Source of the DNA: an uncultured Alphaproteobacteria bacterium
GTDB lineage: Bacteria; Pseudomonadota; Alphaproteobacteria; HIMB59; GCA-002718135
Direction: 5' to 3'
NCBI GenBank assembly: GCA_902597015.1
Contig: CACJWQ010000005.1
Coordinates: forward strand, 17,017 to 81,016
Length of the DNA stretch: 64,000 nucleotides
Shown: positions 41,237 to 55,469 of the stretch, one piece after another
Position numbering within the stretch: the first letter of the stretch is position 1
Layout of the letters: the number at the start of each line of letters is the position of its first letter
Translations under genes and position numbers: made by a program
Notes under the pieces: generated by a model
Seen by the model: only the letters and a program-made list of their open reading frames with translations
The model's database searches: none
What the model was told of the DNA's origin: nothing

Positions 41237-41701
41237 TTATTTTTGTTGTGTTAACATCATTCGTAATGATTTTTTTTCTTTTAAAAGACGTCTTCTTGAA
41301 TCTTCAGTATTTTTTAGACCTTTTTTTGGCTCCCAGATTTGAAAGTAGTAGCCTTGACCAAAAAAAGCAGCTTCAGTTTTAATGCCAGCGTATAATTTTA
41401 ATTCTTCTGGAATTAAAAATCTTCCTTCTTTATCAATATTAGTTGTAATTATTTCTGAAAATATAGATGTTGAAAAATCGTCATAATCCTCGGAAAAAAA
41501 ATCTAAGTTATTAATTCTTTTGGCAATTTCTTTTAATCTTCCAACACCACAACCTTCTATAGAGGGTGTTTTTATAGATTTGTATAAAATAATTTCATTT
41601 CTATTAGCTTTTGGAAGTACATTTCTAAAGCTAGAGGGTAGAGAAACTCTTCCCTTCTTATCTATTTTATTAACATATTTAGATACAAATAAATCCATCA
41701 T
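41237..41701 (-). CDS. mraZ: Transcriptional regulator MraZ
   Basis: 154 aa; two SpoVT-AbrB-like repeats (NKIDKKGRVSLPSSFR; TNIDKEGRFLIPEELK). Confidence 0.93.
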   Translation of the reverse strand: MMDLFVSKYVNKIDKKGRVSLPSSFRNVLPKANRNEIILYKSIKTPSIEGCGVGRLKEIAKRINNLDFFSEDYDDFSTSIFSEIITTNIDKEGRFLIPEELKLYAGIKTEAAFFGQGYYFQIWEPKKGLKNTEDSRRRLLKEKKSLRMMLTQQK

Positions 41702-41704
41702 ATA

Positions 41705-41739
41705 TGGGTTATCATGGGATTATATGGGCGTCAATGGGT
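41705..41739. promoter_or_regulatory. Putative MraZ-binding repeat cluster: four TGGGN repeats at exactly 10-bp spacing
   Basis: Plus strand TGGGT-tatca-TGGGA-ttata-TGGGC-gtcaa-TGGGT; TGGG starts at 41705, 41715, 41725, 41735; directly upstream of the mraZ start at 41701. Confidence 0.8.
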
Positions 41740-41786
41740 ATATAAAACTATAATAAATGTTCTTTGTATGTTCTCAATAAATATAA

Positions 41787-42122
41787 AGATGGTGCATAAG
41801 CCGGGTTCTGTAATTTTATAAAAATTGATGATCATTAATCTAGAACAAATGTCACCATTTGTTTCAAGCAGTCTACCCGAACAGCTCAGCTGGAACTGAT
41901 TGCCATTCCTATTTGACCTTGCTCCAAAAAGGGTTTGCAAAGCCTTTTTTGTTACCAAAAAAGCGGTAAGCTCTTACCTTACCTTTTCACCCTTACCTTT
42001 TCAGGCGGTATATTTTCTGTTGCACTTTCCCTAAGCTTTCACTTGCCAGGTGTTACCTGGTTTTTTTTCCAGTGGAGCCCGGACTTTCCTCTTGATTACT
42101 CAAGCGATCATCGCACCATCTA
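41787..42122 (-). ncRNA. rnpB: RNase P RNA (bacterial type A)
   Basis: Minus-strand 5' GAGGAAAGTCCGGGCTCC, GGTAAGAGCTTACC, ACAGAACCCGGCTTATGCACC 3'; complementary ends AGATGGTGC/GCACCATCT; GNRA-capped 8-bp stem at 41844-41863. Confidence 0.95.
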
Positions 42123-42140
42123 AATTTGTAATAAATTTAT

Positions 42141-48029: not shown

Positions 48030-48815
48030 ATGAATAAAAAAATTATAATTCTATTTTTTCTATTTTTCAGCTTACTCTCCTATAAAGTAATTGCAAGTGA
48101 TGCTGATCAAGTACGAACTGACTCAGAGGATTTTGAAACAACCACGATAGAGGATGAAATATATGATCCTTTTGAACCAGTGAATAGAGCCATATTTAGT
48201 TTTAATAATGTAGCTGATAGAATTGTTTTAGAACCAATTGCAAAAGGCTACAAAAAATTACCTTCTCCACTACAAAGTGGAATAAATAATTTTTTGAGTA
48301 ATTTAAGAGCTCCTTTGGTTGTTGTGAATCAATTATTACAAGGTCAAGGCGAAAATGCCATTCAATCATCAGGAAGATTTATTCTTAATAGCACTGTGGG
48401 TGTATTTGGGTTATTCGACGTAGCTGAAAAGATGGGATTCGAAGAAAAAGAGGAGGATTATGGACAAACCCTTGCAACTTGGGGTGTTGGAGATGGTTTT
48501 TATATAGTACTTCCATTGTTTGGGCCATCTAATCTTAGAGATACTTCAGGAATGGTTTTAACAATGATGACAGATCCAATCAATGCATATGCAGTAAGTG
48601 AGGGTGAAGCATGGTTAGTACCAATGAGAACAGCTGTTAATGCAGTTGATACAAGATCACAAATAATTGATGAAGTGAATGCCTTAAGAGATAATTCAGT
48701 AGATTATTATGCTGCAGTAAGAAGCTCTTACTATCAAAACCGTAAGGCGGCAATTAATAATGTCGATGACTCAGAATTAACACCTCTACCTCTAATTAGC
48801 ATTGAATTTGAATAA
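48030..48815 (+). CDS. mlaA: MlaA/VacJ-family outer membrane lipid asymmetry protein
   Basis: 261 aa; YDPFEPVNRAIFSFNNVADRIVLEPIAKGY, FNRFILNSTVGVFGLFD-like segment, EEDYGQTLATWGVG. Confidence 0.93.
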   Translation: MNKKIIILFFLFFSLLSYKVIASDADQVRTDSEDFETTTIEDEIYDPFEPVNRAIFSFNNVADRIVLEPIAKGYKKLPSPLQSGINNFLSNLRAPLVVVNQLLQGQGENAIQSSGRFILNSTVGVFGLFDVAEKMGFEEKEEDYGQTLATWGVGDGFYIVLPLFGPSNLRDTSGMVLTMMTDPINAYAVSEGEAWLVPMRTAVNAVDTRSQIIDEVNALRDNSVDYYAAVRSSYYQNRKAAINNVDDSELTPLPLISIEFE

Positions 48816-54224: not shown

Positions 54225-55469
54225 TTAAAGTCCGCTAGTTAAAACGCCTTCTAAGTCGTCCATTACTTGAGCAACAGTGTAATTAGGATCATTTCTAAAT
54301 TCAGAAATAATATCACCCCATGCTGCAGTGAATGCAGGAGTATTCCAATCATCACTTTCTCTCATAATTGCATCTGGATTTTGAATTAAATCTAAACCCA
54401 TTTGCATACAAGCATCAGCTGCAGAAGTATCAACGTCAAGTCTCATAGGTAGAGAACCTTTAGCATTGTTAAATTTAGCCTGTACAGTTGGATTAACCAT
54501 CATACTTGCCATTGCTAGCTGAGCATCTTTCACTTTTGGATCATCATTTTTAGGAAAAACAAATACATCACCGCCAAGAGCAACATATTTTTCTTTACCA
54601 GGAATTACACAAGAATAATCAACCATTGCTTCTTGTCCAGCAACAGCAAATTCACCTCTTGCCCAATCTCCCATAACTTGCATTGCAGCTTTTCCTTCGA
54701 TAACCATAGCGGTAGTATCATTCCATAATCTTCCAGGAGAACCTTCATCTGTGAATTGGTTTAATTCTCTGTAAGTATTTAAAACTGACTCAAATCTTCC
54801 ATCTCTAAATGCATCCAGATCTTTATCTCTATAAATTGATTGCATTAGAGGAAAGCCCATTATTGAAGACGCAACAACATCAAACATACCAGATTCTTGC
54901 CATCCCTGACCGCCTAGTGCCAATGGAATGATTCCAGCTTCTTGAATTTTTGGAGCTCCAGCTAAAAATTCCTCAAAAGTTTGAGGTACTGGTAAACCAA
55001 CTTTTTTGTAAACATCATTGTTGATCCACATCCATTGCCAGCTGTGAATATTTACAGGTACACAATAAAATTCACCCTCAAATTCACAAGTTTCAATTAA
55101 TTCAGGTGGGTAAATAAAATCTCTCCAACCCTCTGCAGAGGCAACTTCTTCAAGTGATTGAAGTAAACCTTGCTCAACTAAATCTACAAATTGTTTTGAT
55201 ACGTTGAACTGTGCTGCAGTTGGTGGATTTCCACCAATAATTCTGTTTACAGTTGTTCCTCTTGCATTATCACCACCAGTAATTGCAGTGTCAATCCAAG
55301 TATTACCCATTTCTTCCCAAGCTTTAGCAAATTCTGAAATTGCAGCTTGCTCTCCACCAGAAGTCCACCAGTGAATAACTTCAGCTTCCATGTGACCAGC
55401 AGCCTTGGAAACATTAGTAAAAGATAGGGGTACAAATATAGTTAATAATATTGAAAAAAATTTTTTCAT
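54225..55469 (-). CDS. Sugar ABC transporter substrate-binding protein (glucose/mannose GtsA-like)
   Basis: Likely start MKKFFSILLT with upstream GGGAGGAAAATAATG; signal peptide; VIHWWTSGGEQAAISEFAKAWEE, IHSWQWMWINNDVYKKVGL. Confidence 0.9.
   Translation of the reverse strand: MKKFFSILLTIFVPLSFTNVSKAAGHMEAEVIHWWTSGGEQAAISEFAKAWEEMGNTWIDTAITGGDNARGTTVNRIIGGNPPTAAQFNVSKQFVDLVEQGLLQSLEEVASAEGWRDFIYPPELIETCEFEGEFYCVPVNIHSWQWMWINNDVYKKVGLPVPQTFEEFLAGAPKIQEAGIIPLALGGQGWQESGMFDVVASSIMGFPLMQSIYRDKDLDAFRDGRFESVLNTYRELNQFTDEGSPGRLWNDTTAMVIEGKAAMQVMGDWARGEFAVAGQEAMVDYSCVIPGKEKYVALGGDVFVFPKNDDPKVKDAQLAMASMMVNPTVQAKFNNAKGSLPMRLDVDTSAADACMQMGLDLIQNPDAIMRESDDWNTPAFTAAWGDIISEFRNDPNYTVAQVMDDLEGVLTSGL

Follow-up and report, generated by a model that had tools for sequence, protein, structure and literature searches.

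A predicted MraZ operator in inverted orientation, interleaved with a putative promoter and adjoining an SOS box, upstream of mraZ in Alphaproteobacteria

Introduction

Few regulators are conserved across bacteria as widely as MraZ, yet work on its operator has covered a small number of species. For Escherichia coli, Eraso et al. in 2014 reportedly defined this operator as a set of TGGGN repeats with 5-nt spacers at the mraZ promoter. When we re-read the E. coli sequence, the coding strand upstream of mraZ carried TGGGA-AATTG-TGGGG-CAAAG-TGGGA, located downstream of TTGACA-18-TAAACT. A second described system is that of Mycoplasma, for which cryo-EM has shown MraZ of M. genitalium in complex with a promoter of four boxes (PDB 9sz7). 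A motif for alphaproteobacterial LexA has been defined as GTTC-N7-GTTC (PMC3323433, PMC8565304). The dcw cluster of E. coli is also on record as containing LexA sites, and LexA has been reported to bind at a Gram-positive mraZ (PMC3265435, PMC3998124), so that a link between LexA and mraZ has precedent. The literature that we searched contained no earlier report of a LexA site at an alphaproteobacterial mraZ. We likewise found no prior account of alphaproteobacterial MraZ boxes, in a search that did not reach the main experimental MraZ papers.

Here, we describe the region upstream of mraZ in a 64,000-nt stretch of DNA from an uncultured marine alphaproteobacterium (contig CACJWQ010000005.1; the whole stretch is referred to as the window), in which four TGGGN repeats had been noticed and proposed to be a MraZ operator.

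Results

mraZ and its neighborhood

The mraZ open reading frame occupies positions 41237-41701 on the minus strand, and alignment with relatives placed the homologous start at the second ATG (41698). The encoded protein matched Pfam PF02381 with 45 bits, compared to a cut-off of 23, through its C-terminal domain, and alignment showed that both SpoVT/AbrB-like domains of MraZ are present with their DxxxR motifs (D13-R17 and D89-R93). The structure model was confident (pLDDT 92.5), and its only strong fold matches, which span the whole protein, were solved MraZ structures obtained by crystallography or cryo-EM, including 9sz7. Judged by sequence and model, the product is a true MraZ. On the minus strand, the genes follow in the order amidase gene, rnpB, a 79-nt gap, mraZ, rsmH, and more dcw genes, which we named ftsL, ftsI, murE, and murF from their place and sequence. 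The gene directly upstream of mraZ, rnpB (41781-42123, minus strand), was recognized by an Rfam match to class A RNase P RNA (RF00010). Among named relatives, the nearest are uncultured Alphaproteobacteria known from single-cell genomes of the ocean; one of them, AG-912-F03, has a MraZ that is 99% identical.

Four boxes upstream of mraZ

The four TGGGN repeats of the original prediction are present on the plus strand in steps of 10 bp: TGGGT at 41705-41709, TGGGA at 41715-41719, TGGGC at 41725-41729, and TGGGT at 41735-41739. As had also been pointed out, TGGG lies on the strand opposite to mraZ, so that the operator reads CCCA-N6 four times on the coding strand (boxes at 41738-41735, 41728-41725, 41718-41715, and 41708-41705, minus strand). 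The last box was said to lie 3-4 nt from the start codon, which is right for the first ATG (3 nt), while the distance to the second, homologous ATG is 6 nt. Given the 28% GC content and the observed frequency of TGGG, 7e-7 four-box runs are expected by chance in the window, and none of 100 dinucleotide shuffles contained even a three-box run.

A search of the source genome revealed no three-box pattern elsewhere. Across the genus, this pattern was found in 15 of 23 genomes, solely at mraZ, and the reversed-pattern control gave 0. We also noted two extra TGGG-N6-TGGG pairs in the window, at 48397-48410 (plus strand) and 55306-55319 (minus strand), both of which are intragenic and probably due to chance. 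We considered further MraZ targets and rejected them, as the three-box pattern occurs at mraZ alone in the genus and the two spare pairs of the window lie inside genes.

The original prediction had proposed aligning the mraZ upstream regions of relatives, and in such an alignment the boxes were kept in every genus relative with sequence at that place. They also recur beyond the genus, in the same orientation, across the Alphaproteobacteria. Because they are conserved, the boxes are almost certainly the MraZ operator, and on sequence grounds they very likely serve MraZ autoregulation. The earlier identification of a likely MraZ operator thus gains support both from the family and fold of the protein and from box conservation in genus and class. 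That this operator controls the whole dcw cluster, as was also suggested, is plausible.

The original prediction had urged caution over orientation, and this caution was justified, as coding-strand TGGG is the arrangement of E. coli and most non-alphaproteobacterial relatives and the opposite strand is used here. At 41 loci from the same phylum outside the Alphaproteobacteria (E. coli included), coding-strand TGGG won at 35 and tied at four, and CCCA was favored at two low-scoring loci. Where TTGAC was found at these loci, it lay 25-58 nt (mostly 28-43 nt) upstream of the first box. Among 93 alphaproteobacterial loci, about one per family and drawn from the best Pfam hits, so that families with very divergent MraZ are under-sampled, 77 scored at least 14 of 16 for four coding-strand CCCA boxes; the corresponding counts for TGGG and for shuffled sequences were both 0. 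The inversion is thus a trait of the class and no peculiarity of the source genome.

A predicted promoter within the boxes

A predicted -35 element, TTGACG, occupies the first operator spacer (41729-41734, minus strand), and a predicted extended -10 element, TGA-TAACCC (41706-41714, minus strand; hexamer 41711-41706), lies with its TGATAA in the third spacer and runs into box 4. Both are invariant in the genus, and both have class-wide counterparts in a TTGAC located 17-18 bp before a TATCCC-like -10 with the consensus TGnTATCCC. In the 25 aligned genus loci, CCCATTGACGCCCAT and CCCATGATAACCCA did not vary, in contrast to the spacer between them. TTGA-N-TGnTA at promoter spacing was present at 71 of the 93 alphaproteobacterial loci, compared to a shuffle maximum of 7. 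The hexamer TAACCC is a poor fit to TATAAT and has no T at -7. A TATAAT in the second spacer is a better consensus match, but we rejected it as the -10 since it is not conserved in the genus. The sequence has the features of a sigma70 promoter of the alphaproteobacterial type, namely TTGAC, a spacer of 17-18 bp, and a -10 often without the -7T. The -7T is often absent from alphaproteobacterial promoters, which has been linked to CarD (PMC8407463), and a protein of CarD type and size is encoded in the genus.

Across the class, the boxes are phase-locked to the -10, and the TTGAC slides by one base between loci with 17-bp and 18-bp spacers, which argues that the TTGAC is a promoter element and not a MraZ contact. 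Between the same two groups, the box set moves by one full turn. In the sister family and in SAR11, there are two or three boxes and the -10 falls in a different spacer, so the arrangement differs between lineages. The sister family has a reduced operator in which TATAAT is flanked by two CCCA boxes; a TTTACT lies 17 bp upstream, a third, box-like ACCATG includes the start codon, and there is no SOS box.

The end of the -10 is separated from the start codon by 7 nt at 20 of the 25 genus loci and by 8-10 nt at the rest. From this distance, we predict that transcription starts at about 41699 (41697-41701, minus strand), at or beside the start codon. No ribosome-binding site was seen before the mraZ start in the window sequence. 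Provided that the promoter is correctly assigned, transcription begins at the ATG or no more than a few bases from it, and mraZ mRNA in the genus is predicted to be leaderless or nearly so. In other alphaproteobacterial families, the first in-frame start lies at a median distance of about 69 nt, so the compaction is lineage-specific.

An SOS box between rnpB and the operator

Twenty base pairs upstream of the operator, on the rnpB side, lies an SOS (LexA) box that the original prediction had missed (GAACATACAAAGAAC; GAAC-N7-GAAC; 41759-41773, minus strand), identified by a perfect motif match and by conservation. In the genus, the box precedes mraZ at 22 of 25 loci in exact form and at the remaining three with one change. 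It also precedes known SOS genes: a script found it before lexA at 20 of 21 loci, and the one remaining locus, which is mis-framed in that search, has the box too; before recA, it was present at all 17 assessable loci (recA of the source genome is at a contig start, with its upstream region absent). Most genomes of the genus encode lexA, and the source assembly, which is 67% complete, yielded no match. The source genome contains 11 GAAC-N7-GAAC sites, of which two are intergenic, one at mraZ and the other some 60 nt upstream of paired umuDC genes; the nine sites internal to open reading frames are probably chance occurrences. One site, noted by eye, covers the first codons of an FtsK-like open reading frame in the source genome and may be chance; in E. 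coli, ftsK belongs to the SOS genes. Separately, GAACAAAATAAGAACA within a trmE/mnmE-like open reading frame recurs in many genomes of the genus, often in two copies.

The exact SOS motif was absent from the lexA, recA, and mraZ loci examined in the sister family. Across the class, an SOS box was found upstream of mraZ at 29 of the 93 loci and in the opposite orientation at 7 (36 of 93 in all), compared to shuffle means of 0.8 and 0.6. rnpB lies upstream at 12 of 20 class loci with an SOS box at mraZ. In many alphaproteobacteria, the box follows soon after rnpB and is separated from the mraZ -35 downstream of it by about 140-160 bp, a stretch that could hold a separate SOS-controlled transcript. 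We also considered whether the GAACAT repeat is a response-regulator site and rejected this assignment, as the motif precedes lexA, recA, and umuDC and fits the published LexA motif. Overlapping the SOS box is a possible upstream promoter, TTGAGA-N16-TATTAT (41750-41777, minus strand), which was recognized by its consensus match and is weakly conserved.

Discussion

Taken as a whole, the region is best explained, in our view with good probability, as a MraZ autorepression operator that is interleaved with its promoter, acts by occlusion, and receives SOS input. What we observed is the sequence with its conservation, orientation, and spacing, together with the family and fold of the MraZ protein and the presence of the SOS motif at established SOS genes; binding and repression, the start of transcription, and whether LexA acts positively or negatively are inferred. 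A MraZ ring would dock its subunits on the four in-phase boxes and thereby cover about -39 to -6. Bound MraZ would exclude RNA polymerase and so repress both mraZ and the dcw genes that follow. With little MraZ present, polymerase would start at or next to the ATG and produce a leaderless or nearly leaderless mRNA. The LexA site 20 bp further upstream would add the SOS input; LexA could repress the upstream promoter, repress the main promoter, or act otherwise. Relative to the original prediction, the class-wide inversion, the promoter phasing, the predicted leaderless start, and the neighboring SOS box are additions, read from sequence.

The layout could instead resemble that of E. coli, with transcription from the upstream promoter (41777-41750) and with MraZ boxes in the 5' leader that act as a roadblock or block promoter escape. 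We regard this as unlikely, although that promoter has 10 of 12 consensus matches, better than the operator-internal -10, and the boxes of E. coli and other non-alphaproteobacterial loci do lie downstream of the promoter. Its -10 and part of its -35 vary in the genus, whereas the operator-internal TTGACG and TGATAA are invariant and class-wide. Both promoters could also be used, and secondary mraZ start sites have been reported in agrobacteria (PMC10469942).

The preferred reading, an operator for MraZ, also has to be weighed against another regulator with a half-site period of 10 bp, such as a response regulator of the CenR, NtrX, or CtrA type. CenR binds TGA-N8-TGA, and NtrX sites have been reported upstream of Rhodobacter mraZ (PMC9275681, PMC7240162), but the motifs published for these two regulators differ from CCCA/TGGG, the boxes have the sequence and period described for MraZ, and the run is confined to mraZ in the genus, which makes this reading very improbable. 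We give slightly less credence still to an action in RNA, for example through a structure or a protein-binding site that governs the translation of mraZ. In favor of this, the boxes lie next to the start codon and a ribosome-binding site was not seen; however, there is no Rfam match at the boxes, those of other families lie tens to more than 100 bases upstream of the start, and the exact helical phasing and the embedded -35 and -10 fit DNA. The shortness of each single box might suggest a chance or compositional repeat, an explanation that is refuted by conservation and has a negligible probability, given the expectation of 7e-7, a run that is genus-invariant amid varying flanks, and its recurrence throughout the class.

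A wider claim, to which we give a little less than even weight, is that the dcw cluster carries a class-wide composite control region. This would combine an inverted MraZ operator, phase-locked within a core promoter that lacks the -7T and probably depends on CarD, with a LexA/SOS box that lies between rnpB and mraZ in one-third of the families or more, so that DNA damage would act directly on the genes for cell wall and division; in the genus, the mraZ mRNA would also be leaderless. With the operator inverted across the class and placed in the core promoter instead of the leader, repression is predicted to work by a mechanism unlike that of E. coli. Through this layout, one could also test cleanly whether a ring-shaped repressor is sensitive to the orientation of its operator, and the neighboring SOS box allows a direct link between DNA damage and the division cluster to be tested in common laboratory Alphaproteobacteria.

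Compared with described systems, the operator in the window is a variant of the known MraZ operator type. It shares with the E. coli operator the TGGG core, the 10-bp period, the position just upstream of mraZ, and a presumed role in autorepression. It differs in that E. coli has TGGG on the coding strand and three boxes instead of four, and in that the E. coli boxes lie downstream of the -10, whereas those of the window overlap the predicted -35 and -10. The Mycoplasma operator likewise consists of direct repeats in tandem ahead of mraZ, and the MraZ that binds them has the same fold, but the boxes read AAAGTG[T/G] and the protein is distant, with about 20% identity to the MraZ of the window. 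The SOS box, in turn, is the exact reverse complement of the alphaproteobacterial LexA motif, a motif that in this lineage also stands before lexA, recA, and umuDC; unlike those boxes, the one in the window is located at mraZ.
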